64,000 bases of DNA. Source: Terriglobia bacterium (GTDB taxonomy: Bacteria; Acidobacteriota; Terriglobia; JAIQFV01). Position 1 is the first letter of the stretch; every line of letters begins with the position of its first letter. The notes beneath the pieces are model-generated. The model had not been told where the DNA came from, made no database searches, and worked only from the letters and a program-made list of their open reading frames with translations. The translations under genes and the position numbers were made by a program. Positions 9,047 through 62,525 of the stretch are shown here, one piece after another. The stretch spans positions 62,001-126,000 of the forward strand of contig JAIQFV010000012.1 in NCBI GenBank assembly GCA_020073085.1, given 5' to 3'.

Positions 9047-9189
9047 CAAATCTCTCCTCTGAATGGATAGCCGTTCTCCAGTCCTTTGGACGTCTGAAAG
9101 AGAGTGCTTGTCCCAAGGGATTGTCTACGGGCTTTCCGGCGACTGCGACCACCTCTTGCTGGAGGTGCGCGGTCCATGACTCCAGCCTC

Positions 9190-9411
9190 TGGCAGCCCCA
9201 CTTAAAGACCGGGCCCCTCAGCGGCAATCCTCAGAAACTCGATCTCTCGTTCGTGAGCATTACCAACCTCGCCAGTCCGGGTGCCAGCCATATCCATCAT
9301 CTCGTGGTCACGTTCGACGACCACGCTCACTTCACCCAAAACTGGACGTGGCGGGAGAACGGGAAAGACCAGAGCGGCGCCTTTCGCTTCACCCGCAAAA
9401 AGTCGTCTTGA
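9190..9411 (+). pseudogene. C-terminal remnant of a DUF1579-like protein
   Basis: The frame ending with TGA at 9411 encodes a stretch that looks like the tail of DUF1579-like proteins: LSFVSITNLASP, then HIHHLVVTFDDHAHF, then TQNWTWRENGKD and an F-F-T-R-K-K ending. The match seems to begin near codon PLSGNPQ; nothing recognisable precedes it and no ribosome-binding site supports the ATG at 9121. It is best read as a truncated relic. It lies next to repeat- and MITE-rich DNA, which may explain the loss of its 5' part. The family assignment is from memory of the motif pattern. Confidence 0.5.
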
Positions 9412-9559
9412 GATGGTAAGAAGATAGGACGGATCCAGGGCCGAATGGCGCTTACCCCCGCAGTCTGTGACGTGACGACGGAGTTGCGTCCAATGCCGCC
9501 TCGGCGGTGTTGGAATCGTGCAGCTCACCGCTTGAGCTGTGGAAAGGGAATTATTCTAC

Positions 9560-10350
9560 CCCGAATTCCGATGTTGAATGCCATGATCAAGGTCGGAGGG
9601 AGATTCAATCCCCATTATTATAGAGGATGATAAATTATTGTGACGCCGCCCGTGCAGGAATTGCCACATTGGTGGGGTCTTGGGTGGCCGAGTCGTGTCA
9701 CTATGTTTTATCATCCTCTATAGATGATTTTCGAATATCGCTTTAGGCCCGGAGGGCTCTCAGATTGTAGCCCCACCTGAAGCTCCGTCCCGCGTTCTTT
9801 GTGGGGCGGAGCGAGGGTGGGGTACCGGTCTCCCGATCACATCGGAGCCCCGCTTGCGGGGCGAAAGAATCTGTCGAGTGGATCTTCGGACAACCCTACA
9901 TTAATTCCATGGCATGTTCCTCTCCGCTGTGCTTTCTTTCCACTCCCCGTTCCCTTCTCGCTTTACGAATGAGTGGAGCCCGACTCCACCGGTTGGATTC
10001 ACGAACCGATATCTGGACCCGGGAGGCCTTTCCTGGCTGCGGGCGCGCCTGCGGAAGATCTCCTTTCCGCAATAGAGAGGAACTCTTTCCGAGTGCAAGG
10101 AATCGAATAGGACGTTCGGTATACTTGGCTCTGGGACATCGTTTCGCCCCGCCAGCGGGGCTCTCACTTTTTCTCTCCTCGGTACCCCGCCCTCGCCCCG
10201 CAAAGAGAAAAAGCGCGGGGCTCAGGCGGGGCTACAATCTGACAGCCCTCCGGGCCTAAAACGAAGCTGCCTGTCCCCGCAGTTCAGCGGTTCATTGGCA
10301 CCATGGCCCCTCCGGGCCTAGAGCGACAGCCGCCTCGCTCGAAAAGCATC
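9560..10350 (+). repeat. long-terminal-inverted repeat element, copy 1
   Basis: The core (9744-10258) begins TAGGCCCGGAGGGCT and ends AGCCCTCCGGGCCTA. The two ends are inverted copies of each other for roughly 130 bases, including a GTAGCCCC(A/G)CCTGA block and an inner GCCCCGC-GCGGGGC hairpin. Flanks shared with the other copies extend it to 9560 (CCCGAATTCCG) and to 10350 (GCCTCGCTCGAAAAGCATC). Related copies are at 29739-30420 (same orientation) and 23998-24533 (reversed, truncated). No conserved open frame is seen. It may be a non-autonomous mobile element or a structured RNA. Confidence 0.8.
9619..9722. mobile_element. 104-bp MITE-like element inserted in the repeat
   Basis: Terminal inverted repeats of 26 bases match at 23 of 26 positions; the outer 16 are perfect (TATAGAGGATGATAAA and its complement at 9707-9722). 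The element interrupts the flank of repeat copy 1: the other two copies read through the same place (ATTAGTGGATGC-TTTTCGAA type sequence) without it. It has no coding capacity. A related half-end (GATGATTAAGTATAGTGACAC) occurs at 10762-10782. The parent transposase is not in this window. Confidence 0.75.
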
Positions 10351-10907
10351 GACCGATGGTACAGAGTCAGACATCTCTCCCTCTTTCTCCGGTCCCTTCA
10401 AGGGATAAACAATTCCATTCTTCCTTCATTCCATTCCAATCGATTTGAATCGAAGAGCCGAGCCCTTCGTAGACGCCCTTAGTTTCGGAATTCGGGTATA
10501 CAGCTCCATCCCGCATTGATCGGGGGTGATTCCTTGCAGGATATAGAAGTCCCCCCGAATTCTTCCGATTATCCGGGCTCGATATGCCGGGTTCGGAGCC
10601 CTGCCTTCCGAGCCGCTTTGATTTGACGTTCATCGCAGGAGACAAAAAGTTCCGCTCCCCTGCTCCTCCGGCGAGTTCGCCAGGTATTAAGCTCACCGCT
10701 TCCGTCTGACGTGACAACCCTGTTCCCTTCTTGAGAATCCAAGGCAGCAGAACGGATTGATGATGATTAAGTATAGTGACACCGCTGGAGGAGTTTGGCA
10801 ATGATGTGCGGCTCTGCCGCTTCCGCCGTGGATGACCGGAAACCTCGTGGGGAGTTTGCCCGTAGGGGAAAGGGATGGACATCACGACAACGACACAAGG
10901 AGATCCT
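10351..10907. other. intergenic region, no gene seen
   Basis: 557 bases between repeat copy 1 and the next coding region. No plausible gene is seen on either strand. It contains the half-end related to the MITE (10762-10782) and, at its right end, the AAGGAG ribosome-binding site of the next gene. Confidence 0.6.
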
Positions 10908-12608: not shown

Positions 12609-12640
12609 GAAATTCCACGCCCCATCGGGCTCTCACCACC

Positions 12641-12791
12641 ATTCATCGGGGTTGACCTCATGCCCGGGTCGGTCGTTAACGACCGACCCCTTCGCCACCA
12701 ACCCCGATGAATCGGGGTACGACTTCCAGCTCGCCTGTTCGCGCCGCTAAAGCGGCGGGCTGCAGGAAGCCAAGTCCCCTCAAAGGGGACT
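12641..12791. repeat. cluster of nested perfect palindromes
   Basis: Four hairpins follow one another. A 14-bp stem (ATTCATCGGGGTTG, 12641-12654, with its complement at 12699-12712) encloses a perfect 24-bp palindrome at 12666-12689 centred on GTTAAC. Next come CGCCGCT-AA-AGCGGCG (12742-12757) and AGTCCCCT-CAA-AGGGGACT (12773-12791). They lie between two genes that both read away from or end near them, and could act as terminators, REP-like elements or transposition substrates. Confidence 0.75.
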
Positions 12792-12896
12792 ATCCTATTC
12801 CAGCCGGACTCTCAATTTCCTAACCCAGTGGACAATCATCTTCACACCTACTCGCCTTTGAACTTCGTGGGGCTCCGCCCTCCCTGACGTCAATCC

Positions 12897-23997: not shown

Positions 23998-24533
23998 ATG
24001 AGAGAAAATGTGAGAGCCCCGCAGGCGGGGCGAAACAATGTCCTCAGGTCCAGGTTTGCCGAACATCCTGTTCGATGCCTTGCACTCGGAAAGAGTTCAC
24101 CCTCTCTTGCACAAAAGAGAGCTTCCCTGGCCGCTCCCGCTGCCAGGAAAACCTCCAGTGTCCCGATGTCGCTTCGTGAATCCAACCGGTGCGGTTGGGC
24201 TCTCCTAATTCGTGAAACGAGAAGGGTAACGGGGGCGGAGAAAAAACATTGCGGAGAAGAACATGCCGGGAATTATTGCACGATTGTCCGAAGATCCATT
24301 CGGCAGATTCTTTCGCCCCGCAAGCGGGGCTCGGATGTCTTTGGGAAAACGCGTACCCCACCCTCGCTCCGTCCCGCACAAAACGCGGGACGGAGCTTCA
24401 GGTGGGGCTACAATCTGACAGCCCTTCGGGCCTAAAGGGACAAAAGCCTCGCTCGAAAAGCATCCACTCATGGGAATCGAATCTTCCTTAGACATTAATC
24501 ATGGAATCATGGCCTTCAACTTCGGAATCCGGG
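23998..24533 (-). repeat. long-terminal-inverted repeat element, copy 2 (reversed, truncated)
   Basis: In reverse orientation this matches copies 1 and 3 from the outer GGTTAAATG-side flank (CCGAAGTTGAAGGCCATGAT in reverse complement at 24511-24530) through the CCTGAAGCTCCGTCCCGCG and GTAGCCCC blocks to GAGAGCCCCGC at about 24012. The far terminal repeat is missing. It lacks the MITE, so it serves as the empty-site reference. Next to it begins the hydrolase gene. Confidence 0.75.
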
Positions 24534-24569
24534 TTAAATGCCCCGCCACAAATCCGCCGCGAATCCGGG

Positions 24570-27713: not shown

Positions 27714-28223
27714 TGCTCTTTCCCTCCCAATTGTCGAGAGATTTCATGTCGGGCGTGAAGCCCTTGATGATTCCGTAAAAAGGAAAATCGACTGAAACAA
27801 GGCAACCCAACTGGGCACCGCGACCGGAAGGCGCGATGCTTTTCCTGCGAGCACGGTCTGCATGAAGTGGCTTCCATACTGTAGCAGAGTGTCTGCCGAC
27901 AGAGTGTAATAATTTGCAAAAGTTGCTGGGTTCGACGCGGGTTTCTATCGAACCGCGAACTCAAAACGTAACGGAGTCCAAGGCGTTCCGCATAAGGGGC
28001 ACATGTTTCGTTTCTCCTCCCAATCCGGACGAGCCGAAACCAAAACCAGATTTTATTAGGAAACCAGGAAACCGGGGGATCGGTCGTCGATGGACAGCCC
28101 GCGGCGGCGGGATCATCACGTTCTCTCCCGATTGAAGGTTCTTGACCCCCTGCATTCCTGGCCTCCTAATCATGAATTTTCCCGCCCATGCCCGCACAAA
28201 TTCTGGTGCTTACCGCCTAAAGC
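27714..28223. other. repeat-bearing intergenic region
   Basis: 510 bases with no gene seen. A copy of the second inverted-repeat family sits at 28054-28174, and a GTTCGA-type dyad at about 27930-27953. Confidence 0.5.
28054..28174. repeat. second inverted-repeat family, copy 2
   Basis: The left arm ATTAGGAAACCAGGAAACCG (28055-28074) and right arm CTGCATTCCTGGCCTCCTAAT (about 28150-28170) are mirrored with the same ~70-base spacing as the copy at 25607, and the same CCGAAACCAAAA flank lies upstream. The palindromic ends and repeated flank suggest a small dispersed element. Confidence 0.6.
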
Positions 28224-29612: not shown

Positions 29613-29738
29613 GAAGCAGCGTGTCTTTTGAGCCGAACGGACTGCCTGTCGGGAGTTAATGAAATTGAAGCCCGGTGGACCGGGCTTAGGACTTTCTTGC
29701 CATCGCTTACCCGCCGGTTACCTGGCGTGCTGTCTTAA

Positions 29739-30420
29739 CCCGAATTCCGAAGTTGAATGCCATGATCAAAGTCGGAGGGGGTTCGATTCGCATTAGTGGA
29801 TGCATTTCGAATAAGGGTCTTGCTGCTTTCGACCCAAAGGGCTCTCGATTATAGCCTCGCCTGAGTTCCTCTTTAGGCCTGAAGGGCCGTCAGAGTATAG
29901 CCCCACCTGAAGCTCCGTTACGCGTTCTTTGCGGGGCGGGGCGAGGGTGGGGTGCCGGTCTCCCCAAGGACATCCAAGCCCCGCTTGCGGGGCGAAGGAA
30001 TCTGTCGAATGGATCTTCGGAGAACCCTATAATAATTCACTGGCATGTCCCTCTCCGCAGTGCTTTCTCGCCGCTTCCCTTCACCCTTCTCGTTTCACGA
30101 AAGAGTGGAGCCCAACTCCAGCGGTCGGATTCATGAAACGATATCGGGACCCTGGAGGTTTTTCCAGCTGCGGGAACGCCCTCGGAAGATTTCTTTTCCG
30201 CAAGAGCGGGCGGACTCTTTCTGAGTACGAAGCATGACATAGGGCGTTCGGCATACTTGGAACTGCGGGCCTCGTTTTGCCCCGCAAGCGGGGCTCTCAA
30301 GGTTTCTCTCATGCATACCCCCCTCGCCCCGCAAAAGGAAAAAGCGCGGGGCTCAAACGAGGCTACAACCTGACAGCCCTTACGGGCCTGGAGTGACACC
30401 GGCCCCGCTCGATTATCGAG
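29739..30420 (+). repeat. long-terminal-inverted repeat element, copy 3
   Basis: Same orientation as copy 1. The core (29874-30390) begins TAGGCCTGAAGGGCCGTCAG and ends AGCCCTTACGGGCCT. The left flank begins CCCGAATTCCGAAGTTG at 29739 and contains the uninterrupted sequence that copy 1 has split by the MITE. A decayed half-end (GGGCTCTCGATTATAGCC, about 29839-29856) also lies to the left of the core. No conserved reading frame is seen. Confidence 0.8.
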
Positions 30421-30541
30421 GACGAGCGATCAGGGTGACCAACCCACGCGATAACCCTTCAATTAACGGAGTCTCAAAACCCGAGTCCTGTGAGGATTCT
30501 TTTCAGCCTCGCTAATCCTCCGTTCACCCATTCCATCAAAC

Positions 30542-33505
30542 CTATTTTCCTGCTTGTTCGCGTGAAAGAGAAATGAGGTTAGCAAAGATGCGGTACCCGC
30601 CACTTACCCCCGCGGGAAACTGGCGAAACCAGGAATACCCGGTGTACACAAAGTTCCCCCTTCCATACCGGGTGTAAAGCATTCCCCCGAGTTGCTCCTT
30701 CTCGCCGGGATCATGGGAGGCCAGCAATGGGGTGTAATGTTCATCCCAGGTCCTCATGAAATTGAGACCGCGTTCCTGCACCCAGCCTTCGAAATCTTTT
30801 TCTGTAATCGCATTAGGAGAGGAGAAGACGGGATTCTTCGCAACCAGGATGTGGACGGGCGCTCGCTCATCCACGATGCGAGCAAGGTCATCGGCGGGGG
30901 GCTCCGCTTCGTGGTCGGGATGTCTGGCCGAGGATCTCTCCCGCACGACCTCCTCACGTTGCCAGCGCAGCAGGGGGTAAGGGCCAAATTGGCGGACCGG
31001 ATCGGTATAGGCCGTTATCTTCTCTGCGCTCTGCGGCCCCTTGAATTCTTCGAGCTCCTTTAACAACGCCGTCCTCTGGGAAATCTGTTCCTCTCTATCC
31101 GGGGAATCCATTTCGAGGCGCGGGACCCGAGCGGGGTCCAGGCCAAAGGACGCCGAGTTGTACTGGACAATCAGCGTGCCGCCTTTTTTGACGTAGTCCA
31201 GCAGTCGTCCGTTGTTTTGATCCAGATCGCGGCGCACATCATAAGCCCGAATCCCGGTGATGATCGCATCAAATCCGTCGAGGGATCCGATGGCGAGGGC
31301 CTGATCATCGAGCAACGTGACACTGACGCCCATCTGTTCCAGCCCTTCCGGAATGCGATCGCCGGTTCCCATGATGTACCCGACCTTTAGTCCCGGGGGA
31401 AGTTTGAGCGGGGTGACATGGGCAACGGTTTCTGCGGGCCGATAAAAATTCTGCTCCCGGATGTGGGGATAGGAGATCCTCTGAAACCCCCGCGAGAAAT
31501 TCTCTTTGCCCACGGTGGCCACCGCCAGTATGCGATAGTCTCCCGTGGACGCGCGGGGAGGAACGCGCAGCACAAACTTCTTCAAAACCACCTGCTCTTT
31601 TCCCGCCGTCGAAAAGGCCGTGGTAATGGGCGATGAACTCCATCCCCTGGGCAGAATCAGTTTGACCACGCCATCGACTTTTTCGGCGCCCTCACTTTCG
31701 AGGCGCACAAAAACGGTCTTCGACTGTGCCAGGGCCGGACTCGCGATGATCAACTCGTCGGGCAGGCTCGATACCGAAAGGACCGGGACCACCTTGAAGC
31801 TCTCGCGCCGTTCTCCGTAGCGCGGGTCCACTTGCATGAACTCGACGGGCCGCACCACTTGAAAAGAGGCGCCGGAGGGATCATCAGCGACGCGAAAGGC
31901 AGCCACAAAAGGGATCTCGGGCGGATTTTCCGCGCGTCCCACGAGGGCCTGATTCGCGACGGCGTATCGATCCCCTTCCCGCGGCAGCCGCAGCCAGTAC
32001 ATTTCGGTCGGCAGTGCGGCCGTGGAAGCGGTGGCGGAAAACTTCCACTCCATTTTTTCGTTGTATCGTAACGGCTTCAGTTCGCCCGAGGTCTTCTTCA
32101 CGGTCCAGTCTCGAACCGACGCGGGTTCAATGGTCACGGGTTCAATGCGGACATCGCTTCGATTCAAAAGCGTTGCGGTGACCGTGACGCCGGAGCCCGG
32201 CGTGAGCGAGGGCTGATCCGAACGAACTTCAAAGCTCAGCCCAAGCGCCGCGATGAGCGCCTCGGTAAAGTCCTCTTCTTTGGATCTCAAGTGCTCTGCC
32301 AGCGCCAGCTGGCGACCCTCACTGAGCGCGCTCGACAAAACCCTCTGGCGCAAGGATCGGAGTGCCTCAATCCCTTTGATCAACGCAGGGACGCTGGCGG
32401 AAGGGTGCTCGTCGGGGGCATGACCGGCCATCTCCATGGCGAGGGAGTCAATCGCGCTCAGTCCGGGGGAGAGGAACGGCACCCGGTCCAGCTCACCTCC
32501 TGCCAGGGCAGTCCAATCGGCCATTCGAGCCTGCATAAACTGATGAAAGGCTTGTTGAGCAATTGCGGGATCAGCCGGGGTTTGCGATGGCTGAGACCCA
32601 GAAGAGAGATCCGGGGGTTCGGATGAACTCGCAGAGGCGATCAGCCGGAGATAAACCGGATGCCGGCCCTTTCGCTGTTCTGCCCCCTGGCCCTGGGACT
32701 GGTGCTGGCTTCGGCCAATCGCCGCAATCTCAGTCATCGACTTACCAAGCTGTGGACTGAATTGTCCCACGTCGAGCGAAAAGCTGCCGGGCTCGTGTGG
32801 GTCGCGCCCCGTCACATAGAGTTTTTGAGCCTGCCAGGGATGCAGCCCTTGCGTCAGTTGCTCGGGAAAGCGGTTGGGATCGGCCGCCGCACGAAACGCC
32901 TCCGGGGTGAGAATTCCGATGGCCTGATGATGTCCATGTCCGTCCTCCGCCGTCCCTCGCCAGACGGAGATGATGATGTCCGGCTGGTAACGCCGGATGA
33001 CGCGAACCATATCTCCCAAAACCACATCCCGCCCCCATTTCTCCAAGGCTTCCTTCGGGTCTTTTGAGAATCCGAAGTCGTAGGCGCGAGTGAAGAACTG
33101 TTGGCAGTGGTCATATCCACGGGCCGCCAGCATTTCCTCGGTCCGCAGGATTCCCAGGCTGTCAAACAGCTCGGGCCCGATGAGGTTTTGTCCCCCTTCT
33201 CCGCGCGTCGCCGAGAGGTAGGCGCAATGCACAAACTGCTCCTGCGACAGATAGGCCAGCAGGGCACTGTTCTCGTCATCGGGATGCGCGCCCGTCATCA
33301 GAACGCGCGCCGCCCTGGGCAGATCATGGGCCCGCTCAGAAAAGGTCGTTGCCTCCTGGGCTTTCGCAATAGGGCCCAGGAGCAGGAGGAGACCGCAAAG
33401 GGCCCGGATCCGGAAAAACCCGGGACGCGGTTTGGAAAGGCCCCTTCGCCCGGAGGGGCGCTCTGGCCGTTCGGAAGGGGGAAACCAGGCTATGGTCATG
33501 GGCAT
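30542..33505 (-). CDS. large exported PIG-L (LmbE) family deacetylase
   Basis: 987 residues from the ATG at 33505, with AGGA about nine bases upstream. A signal peptide (GLLLLLGPIAKAQE) precedes a LmbE/PIG-L domain with the metal-binding AHPDDE motif and HGHHQAIGI (third ligand). Further on is a NEW3-like beta domain (TATLLNRSDVRIEPV, about residues 440-520) and a C-terminal GATase/ThuA-like domain (KVGYIMGTGDRIPEGLEQMG, DGFDAIITGIRAYDVR, GGTLIVQYNSASF). PIG-L enzymes hydrolyse N-acetyl groups on sugars. Fusion to a ThuA-like fold is an uncommon size for the family. Periplasmic or exported. It is 39 bases downstream of a small membrane gene. Confidence 0.85.
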   Translation of the reverse strand: MPMTIAWFPPSERPERPSGRRGLSKPRPGFFRIRALCGLLLLLGPIAKAQEATTFSERAHDLPRAARVLMTGAHPDDENSALLAYLSQEQFVHCAYLSATRGEGGQNLIGPELFDSLGILRTEEMLAARGYDHCQQFFTRAYDFGFSKDPKEALEKWGRDVVLGDMVRVIRRYQPDIIISVWRGTAEDGHGHHQAIGILTPEAFRAAADPNRFPEQLTQGLHPWQAQKLYVTGRDPHEPGSFSLDVGQFSPQLGKSMTEIAAIGRSQHQSQGQGAEQRKGRHPVYLRLIASASSSEPPDLSSGSQPSQTPADPAIAQQAFHQFMQARMADWTALAGGELDRVPFLSPGLSAIDSLAMEMAGHAPDEHPSASVPALIKGIEALRSLRQRVLSSALSEGRQLALAEHLRSKEEDFTEALIAALGLSFEVRSDQPSLTPGSGVTVTATLLNRSDVRIEPVTIEPASVRDWTVKKTSGELKPLRYNEKMEWKFSATASTAALPTEMYWLRLPREGDRYAVANQALVGRAENPPEIPFVAAFRVADDPSGASFQVVRPVEFMQVDPRYGERRESFKVVPVLSVSSLPDELIIASPALAQSKTVFVRLESEGAEKVDGVVKLILPRGWSSSPITTAFSTAGKEQVVLKKFVLRVPPRASTGDYRILAVATVGKENFSRGFQRISYPHIREQNFYRPAETVAHVTPLKLPPGLKVGYIMGTGDRIPEGLEQMGVSVTLLDDQALAIGSLDGFDAIITGIRAYDVRRDLDQNNGRLLDYVKKGGTLIVQYNSASFGLDPARVPRLEMDSPDREEQISQRTALLKELEEFKGPQSAEKITAYTDPVRQFGPYPLLRWQREEVVRERSSARHPDHEAEPPADDLARIVDERAPVHILVAKNPVFSSPNAITEKDFEGWVQERGLNFMRTWDEHYTPLLASHDPGEKEQLGGMLYTRYGRGNFVYTGYSWFRQFPAGVSGGYRIFANLISLSREQAGK

Positions 33506-34021: not shown

Positions 34022-34040
34022 AGTAAGGGACCTTAAGGGC

Positions 34041-34129
34041 AGCGGTCAGCTTTCAGCGATCAGCGGTCAGCTTTCAGCGATCAGCGATCAGCGATCAGCG
34101 GTCAGCTTTCAGCCATCAGCTGTCAGTAG
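34041..34129. repeat. AGCGATCAGCGGTCAGCTTTC tandem-like repeat
   Basis: About 89 bases made of variants of AGCGATCAGC and AGCGGTCAGCTTTC, repeated six or more times. It is a minisatellite-like stretch just upstream of the small membrane gene, with no spacers or CRISPR structure. Confidence 0.85.
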
Positions 34130-34292
34130 TCACCGATTTTCGCTCAGTTCGCAGCTGTGAGCCTGCTGAATGAATAGCTATCGAGGCCCAAAACCCATCC
34201 AAAGCAGGATTTAGGTCGCGCCCATCAATAACGGAGCGCGGTGGGCCATAGCTGGTAGCCGAGCGCTGACGGTTGAATGCTGCTCCCCCTTA

Positions 34293-35091: not shown

Positions 35092-35280
35092 AGTTCAAAG
35101 TTCCAAGTTCAAAGTTCCAAGTTCAAAGTTCCAAGTTCAAAGTTCCAAGTTCAAAGTTCCAAGTTCAAAGTTCAAAGTTCAAAGTTCAAAGTTCCAAGTT
35201 CAAAGTTCAAAGTTCAAAGTCCAAGGTCCAAGGTCCAAAACCAGTTCCAAGTTCCAAGTTCAAAGTCCAAAGTCCAAAGT
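35092..35280. repeat. AGTTCAAAGTTCCA tandem repeat
   Basis: About 189 bases built from AGTTCAAAGTTCCA and shortened AGTTCAAAGTTCAA units, between two ABC permease genes. It starts 8 bases before the start codon of the downstream permease. Frames through it encode Ser-Ser-Lys-Phe-type repeats, which are not genes. It resembles intergenic microsatellites common in this lineage. Confidence 0.9.
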
Positions 35281-60371: not shown

Positions 60372-62525
60372 ATGCGTCCCCTGTTTCTCACCGTAATCAT
60401 GCTCGGTACCTTGTGCATCGCAGGAGTCTCATCCATGAAGGCAGCAGAAAAGCATCCGCTCACGTTCGACGATTTGATGAAAGTGCAGCGCGTGGCAGAC
60501 CCGCACATTTCCCCGGACGGCAAGTGGGTGGCTTACTCCGTCACGGCGGTTGATAAGGAAAAAAACACCAAGAACTCTGACATCTGGGTGGTCCCGAGCG
60601 CCGGGGGCCCGGCACAACAGCTCACCCGCTCTCAAAAGAGTGATGACCGCCCGCAGTGGTCTCCGGATGGCAAGGAGATCGCTTTCATCTCCATGCGCGA
60701 TGGTTCCTCCCAAGTCTGGATCCTCCCGGCCCATGGCGGCGAAGCCAGGAAGGTCACCTCCGTTGCCACCGAGGCCAGCGGCGTTTTGTATTCCCCCGAC
60801 GGAAGACACCTGTTATTCACATCCGATGTCTACCCCGAATGCGATCACAGCGATCCTCAGAAAGCCCTCGAATGCAATGCATCCCGGAAGAAAGCGGCGG
60901 AGGACTCCAAGGTGAAGGCGCACATTGCCACCCGCCTGCTCTTTCGACACTGGACCGAGTGGAAGGACGGCAAACGCTCCCACCTGTTCATCGTGCCGGT
61001 GGATGGCTCCGAGCCACCCCGCGATTTGACGCCGGGGGACCACGATGTTCCACCATTCTCGCTCGGGGGACCCGATGATTACGCATTTTCTCCGGATGGC
61101 AAGGAAATCTGCTACACCTCAAACCACGACCCCCACGAAGAGCGTTCCACCAACATGGATCTGTTCGTGGTCAACGTGACCTCCGGTGAAACCAGGAAGA
61201 TCACCGGCAACCCGGCTTACGACGGCTCGCCCCAGTATTCGCCCGACGGCAAGTTCATCGCCTACCGGGCACAATCCCGACCCGGCTACGAGAGCGATCG
61301 CTTTCAACTGATGCTCTATGATCGGTCGAACGCCCAGCCTCGCAGCCTGACGGAAAATTTCGACCGCTGGGTCGATTCGTTCGCCTGGGCGCCGGATTCC
61401 AAAAAACTCTATTTTGCCTCCGGTGACCGAGGACGCAATTCTATTTTCGAAGTCTCCCTCACCGGCAACGATGTGAAGCGGGTGTACGGGGAACATTCCT
61501 CCGGCGATCTCAACGTCACTCCGGATGGAAAAACTTTAGTGTTCACACGGTCCTCGATGCACGAGCCCGCAGAAATCTACCGCATCGGGACCGACGGATC
61601 GAATGCCACACCGCTTACCCGCCACAATCAGCCGCTGCTCGCGACCCTCGACATGAACGCCGCCGAGGAGTTTTGGAGCGACGGCGCCCCTTCATCCGGC
61701 GGGCCCAAAGTGGATCCCAAGGTGGCCAAAGGATTCCTCGATCCCGGCCAGGTCGATGCGGCCATGCCTGCTCAGAAGAGCGTTGACACCCCGAAAATCC
61801 ATTCCTGGATCCTCACGCCGCCACAGTTCGATGCCGCCAAAAAATACCCGATGCTTTTGTTTGTGCATGGCGGCCCCCAGGGCTCCTGGGAGGACAACTG
61901 GGGCTATCGCTGGAATCCGCAGATGTATGCGGCCGCCGGCTACGTCGTGGTGATGCCGGATCCGCGCGGATCCACCGGATACGGACAGCAACTGATCGAT
62001 GAAATCAACAAAGACTGGGGCGGCCGATGTTTCAAGGATCTCATGCTGGCCACCGATACCGCCGAAAAACTGCCCTATCTCGACAAAACCAGGACGGTGT
62101 CCGCGGGCGCTTCATTCGGCGGTTTCATGATCAATTGGTTCCAGGGTCACACCACCCGGTTTAAAGCGCTGGTGGCCCACGCCGGCGACTTCGACCAGGT
62201 GAGCGGCTATTACGTGACCGAAGAGCTCTGGTTTCCTGAGTGGGAGTTGGGCGGAACCCCCGCCGATAACCCGGAACTCTATGATTTCCTCTCTCCCGGG
62301 CGGTACGTGAAGAATTTCAAGACGCCGGAACTGGTCACCCATGGAGAAATTGACTTTCGAGTCCCGGTGGCCGAAGGCCTGGCAATGTTCTCCGCGCTCC
62401 AACGCCGCGGCATTGAGTCGAAGTTGTTATACTTCCCCGACGAAGGCCACTGGATCCTCAAGCCGCTGAACTCGGAGCTGTTCTACAAAACGGCGATCGA
62501 TTGGTTGAATAAGTTTTCGAAGTGA
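60372..62525 (+). CDS. S9 family peptidase (dipeptidyl/prolyl oligopeptidase type), exported
   Basis: 717 residues from the ATG at 60372, with GGAGG six bases upstream. A signal peptide (LFLTVIMLGTLCIAGVSS) leads to a WD40-like beta-propeller (YSPDGRHLLFTSD and similar repeats, about 40-440) and a C-terminal alpha/beta hydrolase. The catalytic serine is S581 in GASFGG, with D661 in HGEIDFRV and H693 in DEGHWILKP. DPP5/acylaminoacyl-peptidase-type, cutting short peptides in the periplasm. The signal peptide places it outside the cytoplasm. It stands alone. Confidence 0.92.
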   Translation: MRPLFLTVIMLGTLCIAGVSSMKAAEKHPLTFDDLMKVQRVADPHISPDGKWVAYSVTAVDKEKNTKNSDIWVVPSAGGPAQQLTRSQKSDDRPQWSPDGKEIAFISMRDGSSQVWILPAHGGEARKVTSVATEASGVLYSPDGRHLLFTSDVYPECDHSDPQKALECNASRKKAAEDSKVKAHIATRLLFRHWTEWKDGKRSHLFIVPVDGSEPPRDLTPGDHDVPPFSLGGPDDYAFSPDGKEICYTSNHDPHEERSTNMDLFVVNVTSGETRKITGNPAYDGSPQYSPDGKFIAYRAQSRPGYESDRFQLMLYDRSNAQPRSLTENFDRWVDSFAWAPDSKKLYFASGDRGRNSIFEVSLTGNDVKRVYGEHSSGDLNVTPDGKTLVFTRSSMHEPAEIYRIGTDGSNATPLTRHNQPLLATLDMNAAEEFWSDGAPSSGGPKVDPKVAKGFLDPGQVDAAMPAQKSVDTPKIHSWILTPPQFDAAKKYPMLLFVHGGPQGSWEDNWGYRWNPQMYAAAGYVVVMPDPRGSTGYGQQLIDEINKDWGGRCFKDLMLATDTAEKLPYLDKTRTVSAGASFGGFMINWFQGHTTRFKALVAHAGDFDQVSGYYVTEELWFPEWELGGTPADNPELYDFLSPGRYVKNFKTPELVTHGEIDFRVPVAEGLAMFSALQRRGIESKLLYFPDEGHWILKPLNSELFYKTAIDWLNKFSK

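Follow-up and report, generated by a model that had tools for sequence, protein, structure and literature searches.

A 64,000-nucleotide stretch of a Terriglobia bacterium genome (the window) holds three copies of a dispersed repeat that is very probably a non-autonomous, MITE-like transposon of ~800 bp, with terminal inverted repeats (TIRs), target-site duplications (TSDs) and a dead REPtron as its cargo. The host genome (G000) is a draft of 5.79 Mb in 68 contigs, the window corresponds to positions 62001–126000 of contig C12, and G001 is a congener. The preliminary description of this DNA reported related copies at 9560, at 23998 (reversed and truncated) and at 29739, and their likeness is indeed far above chance (e.g., inverted pairs of 236 nt at 78% and 168 nt at 86%). 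Copy 1 had been taken to span 9560–10350; it actually runs to 10496, and its outer blocks end in short inverted repeats at 9560–9580 and 10476–10496. The features of the three copies, in window coordinates, are as follows.

9560–10496, + strand: copy 1, whole element, 937 bp including a nested insert
9560–9580, + strand: left terminal inverted repeat of copy 1, CCCGAATTCCGATGTTGAATG (pattern match at G000:C12:71560-71580)
9619–9722, no strand assigned: nested insert found in copy 1 alone, which lengthens its left side; ends TATAGAGGATGATAAA..TTTATCATCCTCTATA, with TA on either side
9745–9843, + strand: left REP-type unit of copy 1, comprising a small GGCC hairpin, GTAG at 9767–9770 and a long hairpin
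9845–9867, + strand: short hairpin of copy 1, GAGCCCCGCTTGCGGGGC, mirrored at 10145–10166
9868–10139, + strand: core of copy 1, read as a decayed, internally deleted IS200-like transposase gene plus a 5′ untranslated part
9967–10131, + strand: recognisable frame remnant of copy 1, E*VEPDSTGWIHEP ... GIE*DVRYTWL (tblastn E 3.9e-4; coordinates set by eye)
10169–10257, + strand: right REP-type unit of copy 1, inverted relative to the left unit, with CTAC at 10232–10235
10476–10496, − strand: right terminal inverted repeat of copy 1 (pattern match at G000:C12:72476-72496)
23998–24537, − strand: copy 2, with left end, left REP and core, truncated ahead of the right REP; terminal repeat at 24513–24533
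29735–30395, + strand: copy 3, with left end, left REP, core and right REP, without the right outer part; terminal repeat at 29739–29759

An alignment of 13 copies, together with the module table, gave the following order, read from the left: left outer block, left REP, short GC hairpin, core, mirrored hairpin, right REP and right outer block. The left outer block (~96 bp) begins with the 21-bp terminal repeat, the core measures ~270 bp, and the right outer block (~180 bp) closes with the terminal repeat in inverted orientation, such that the element ends are TIRs of ~21 bp, CCYGAATTCCGAAGTTRARGG. Inverted repeats of ~130 bases had been described as terminal; the repeats are real, but they lie inside the ends, as two subterminal REP-type hairpins with GTAG feet. 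The inner inverted repeats with their GCCCCGC hairpins were found as described (9738–9780 against 10222–10264, 43 nt, 93%). The nested insert of copy 1 has one full copy in G000 and 30–31-bp end matches in G001 and in genome G002. Elsewhere in the window are two other dispersed repeats, at ~12609–12826 (several matches in G001) and 28019–28220 (many matches in G001), and short tandem arrays of 7-bp units at 34040–34151 and 35092–35239 (CAGCGGT/CAGCTTT and AGTTCAA/AGTTCCA types).

The family is multicopy in its host. The genome-wide copy count and alignment, which the preliminary description had proposed as a check, yielded defined outer ends and at least 20 core copies, 16 full and four partial (C15:11k, C28, C35:6.5k and C38), among 162 BLAST pieces of the repeat; these counts are lower bounds, as contig ends coincide with several copies and 40 of the 81 candidates were scored in the first search. 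All five modules are present in six copies (C12:71k, which is window copy 1, C11:74k, C29:43k, C3:338k, C24:44k and C35:17k) and also in a seventh, C15:11k, with its core mostly deleted. At E<=1e-3, the left outer block accompanies 12 of the 16 full cores, the right block seven, and at least one of them 13, leaving three (L003, L009 and L014) with neither. DNA matches to the family occur in four of 61 genomes, its own included, the fourth (G044) contributing three 32-bp matches. With up to three mismatches allowed, the terminal-repeat pattern matched 36 times in G000, 32 times in G001 and twice in G002, against 1, 0 and 2 matches for reversed-pattern controls. Both ends could be laid out for 10 elements, of which C35:17k has a degraded left end. 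The outer ends also bound gene-less elements of 314 bp (G001 C36 and C52) and 125 bp (G000 C5). The insertion at G000:C5 (L095 902-1026; C5:9201-9325) is orthologous to that at G001:C36 (L136 1208-1521), with flanks 86–88% alike, and differs from it in length (125 and 314 bp, respectively).

Evidence that the outer ends define a mobile unit comes from empty sites. For both full-length copies tested beyond the window, the orthologous site in G001 is empty. At C3:338k, the host reads GATTCAA-element-CTCAAGG and contig C98 of G001 has a single GATTCAAGA (TTCAA and CTCAA, one mismatch, against one TTCAA); at C29:43k, the host reads CTTAA-element-CTTAATTCAAT and contig C52 of G001 has a single CTTAATTCAAT, adjoining a 3-base length difference (CTTAA and CTTAA, against one CTTAA). 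Both clean breaks thus fall at the outer terminal repeats, with a 5-bp duplication. Across eight independent elements, flanking 5-mers agreed at 28 of 40 positions, against 20.6 on average under permutation (p 0.006, modest once eight tested lengths are allowed for), and there was no flank-match signal at 2–4 or 6–9 bp. This set dropped two of the 10 elements, C35:17k with its degraded left end and G001:C36, whose insertion is shared with G000:C5; an earlier, looser score over all 10 was weak and was reached by 46 of 500 permutations. Copy 1 itself is flanked by TCTAC and TATAC, which agree at four of five positions, a decayed TSD.

At the three window sites, G001 has the flanks and not the element, with less clean edges: 9073–10552 (copy 1) and 29697–30545 (copy 3) are absent from G001, and 24001–24552 (copy 2) gives way there to 212 bp of different DNA, with homology starting again no more than a few bases from the left end of the element. 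Because the gaps at copies 1 and 3 exceed the element, loss in G001 is possible at those sites, and we rejected the window copies as clean empty sites. The defined ends, the 5-bp TSD found by the suggested search and the two clean empty sites nonetheless bear out the earlier proposal of a non-autonomous transposon. That the copies are instead parts of larger segmental duplications is hardly credible. Several of them lie at contig ends, where flanks are not comparable (C43, C44, C46 and C49), as such a reading would allow; however, the sequence flanking the full-length copies is unrelated from the very edge of the terminal repeats outwards, and the orthologous flanks in G001 are free of the element. 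The full-length copies therefore have defined ends and do not belong to larger duplicated DNA, the two points on which the preliminary description had staked its proposal.

Judged by its sequence, the core is the remains of an IS200-like (Y1/HUH) transposase gene. The consensus core matches the coding sequence of an intact gene on contig C53 of G001 in two segments, one of 102 bp (72.5%, E 2.8e-13) and one of 41 bp (80%, E 2.6e-7), and its local score against that gene is 66, whereas none of 300 dinucleotide shuffles exceeded 29. With the intact protein as query, tblastn matched 13 of the 16 cores at E<1e-3, whereas the reversed control matched 0 of 16 (best 0.006); the three cores that missed this threshold are L006 (E 0.46), which belongs to window copy 3, L007 (0.026) and L011 (0.005). 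One consensus frame reads NSTGWIHEAISGHWRFSWQ / RERPRKISFPQEWANSFRVQGIE*DVRYTWN*; at the corresponding place, the intact protein reads NSTGWVHEEWPERRRFAWQ, 23 further residues and EEHHRKVSFQEELVTYLKAHGIEYDERYIWM, and an identical 23-residue gap recurs in the alignments of most longer core matches. No intact gene lies inside the element, which has internal deletions and, in many copies, stops. The earlier statement that no conserved frame exists thus holds for an intact frame, but a decayed transposase frame is recognisable.

A structured noncoding RNA gene family, the other identity offered in the preliminary description, is highly improbable. Its side hairpins are strong (−46 kcal/mol for the REP unit), which speaks for such a family, but the window has no Rfam match at gathering scores, the consensus fold of the core reaches only −2.47 kcal/mol with 15 scattered pairs, and the core is decayed coding sequence. 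The covariation check likewise spoke against RNA: an alignment of 14 left-REP copies picked from the module table showed two-sided change in one of 27 REP pairs. The fold of the REP unit fits a DNA hairpin, and RNA is not called for.

The shared deletions bear on when the gene died. None of the 16 aligned cores has a large insertion or deletion at either deletion junction, and since all of them align through both junctions, the deletions probably predate the spread. The converse account, in which several REP-flanked transposase genes decayed independently in place and no spread followed the deletions, could draw on the abundance of Y1 genes (19 matches in G000 and 36 in G001; G002 has 10) and on core L016, which is nearer to the intact protein than the other cores. 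It is nevertheless very unlikely, because both junctions and the outer blocks are common to the aligned cores and the congener has two empty sites. Core L016 (L116 209-482, G000:C43) is the least decayed over the C-terminal part, where it matches the intact protein at 62% across 29 residues, and is possibly an early branch of the family.

The intact G001 locus, on JAIQFY010000032.1 (100% protein match), has the same order of parts as the cargo: REP, short hairpin, gene, short hairpin and REP, the left REP having a degraded GTAG. Its protein scores 78.5 bits against Pfam Y1_Tnp (cut-off 23) and 60.6 bits against the NCBI IS200 model NF033573 (cut-off 55), and falls below the cut-off of the NCBI REP-associated model NF047646 (19.3 bits; cut-off 80). 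In sequence, then, the transposase resembles IS200, and in arrangement, with inverted, GTAG-footed hairpins, a REPtron. The REPtron arrangement, a Y1 gene between inverted GTAG hairpins, is present in the family as a relic and is intact only at G001:C53; two further copies of the gene in G000, cut by contig ends (C15 and C55), have REPs adjoining. By eye, the REP-flanked genes at G001:C53 (L121 1-900) and G000:C55 (L076) adjoin what appears to be the same quinone oxidoreductase-like gene. The source locus of the REP-flanked gene seems to be vertically inherited in both species. Tandem Y1_Tnp domain pairs (a fused double transposase domain) also occur, in open frames of 337, 395 and 374 aa:

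G000:C25:58767-59540 (L080/L086): tandem Y1_Tnp frame
G001:C22:53769-54539 (L085): tandem Y1_Tnp frame
G001:C22:62991-63752 (L087): tandem Y1_Tnp frame

These REP features raise the alternative of a BIME- or REPIN-type unit, in which inverted REPs and the spacer between them would be moved as single-stranded DNA by an IS200-like REP transposase, and the outer blocks would be hitch-hiking flank. The REP hairpins are inverted and have GTAG feet, the REP-foot pattern matches 59 times in G000, 19 times in G001, twice in G002 and 0 times in seven outgroups, and an REP-adjoined gene exists, intact in G001 and in the two cut copies of G000. We consider this account unlikely all the same. Both clean breaks coincide with the outer terminal repeats and come with a 5-bp duplication, and the core of ~270 bp compares with a usual spacer of 20–100 bp in excerpts of PMC3733652, although the inverted orientation does fit. 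The REP transposase mechanism may still explain the many solo REPs.

We therefore return to the TIR/TSD transposon with a dead REPtron as cargo. IS200-type insertion is not known to make a target duplication, from which we infer a DDE-type enzyme at the outer ends. Under the proposed mechanism, such a transposase, supplied in trans, would cut and join the outer 21-bp inverted repeats, each transposition leaving a 5-bp target duplication as at the two empty sites. The cargo would consist of two inverted, GTAG-footed REP hairpins around an IS200-like (Y1/HUH) transposase gene, which would already have been without its N-terminal part and a segment of 69 bp when the copies began to spread; the deletions are shared among the copies, and the order of events is the one we think probable. 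Copying would then need the outer ends and not the enclosed gene, and as a by-product, REP hairpins would be seeded around the chromosome.

The driving transposase might belong to the IS1380 family, which we offer as a weak lead only. Among the 70 terminal-repeat matches in three genomes, inspection by eye found no inward pair 1–3 kb apart that would mark an autonomous partner. The element ends, CCYGAATTCC, resemble CCTAAATTCC of ISEcp1 over about 10 bases, and the 5-bp duplication is also alike: ISEcp1, an IS1380-family element, has inverted repeats CCTAGATTCTACGT / CCTAAATTCCACGT and a 5-bp direct repeat (excerpts of PMC10101111), and the family moves adjacent DNA by misreading ends (excerpts of PMC9330008). 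Of the IS1380-type genes, the one in G001 is complete and the one in G000 is cut at a contig end; the complete copy was rejected as a partner because its ends are different (CCCGGATATCTCACCA / CCCGGATTTCTCACCA).

Comparison with described systems places the family between several of them. Like REPtrons and RAYTs (TnpA-REP), it has a Y1/HUH gene between inverted GTAG-footed hairpins and similar REPs dispersed elsewhere (excerpts of PMC3116915, PMC2817692, PMC6006769 and PMC8266576); unlike them, the gene is dead and deleted, the unit is present in at least 20 dispersed copies, and separate outer ends with target duplication would move it. The excerpted text says that REPtrons do not move as a unit (PMC6006769) and that RAYTs are single copy (PMC3116915). 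With bacterial TIR MITEs, the family shares short TIRs, target duplication, noncoding content and dispersal, as well as short versions (125 and 314 bp), but the full version holds a relic of an HUH-class transposase with its own hairpin ends, and no autonomous partner was found in the genomes searched. According to excerpts of PMC3733652, TIRtrons (TIRYT) are Y1 genes framed by TIRs, with one family of TIRs recurring across the genome and Koribacter versatilis (Acidobacteria) among the hosts, and the GTAG-15 REP dimers of A. variabilis lie within long palindromes. The family resembles these in combining Y1 genes with TIRs and in nesting REP dimers within palindromes; it differs in having REPs and TIRs together and nested, and the sections of that paper on TIRtrons and GTAG-15 describe no target duplications, empty sites or multicopy decayed gene. 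The literature searched, which included excerpts and took in few subscription journals, yielded no case of a REPtron that is dead yet multiplied within a TIR/TSD element.

How REPs spread has long been an open question. This family would provide a concrete case of an REP-flanked transposase relic multiplying through borrowed TIR/TSD ends. REPINs have been proposed to be nonautonomous units derived from an REP-flanked IS200-like ancestor (PMC3116915, in the excerpted text); the family would be a direct instance of the step proposed for them, in which the dead gene can still be read. We suggest tentatively, at somewhat less than even odds, that two unrelated transposition systems are stacked here, a TIR/TSD transposon having captured an HUH REPtron and become its vehicle. 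If so, REPtrons, thought to be immobile as a unit, would be able to multiply and to seed REPs, a second route of REP amplification besides the REP transposase.
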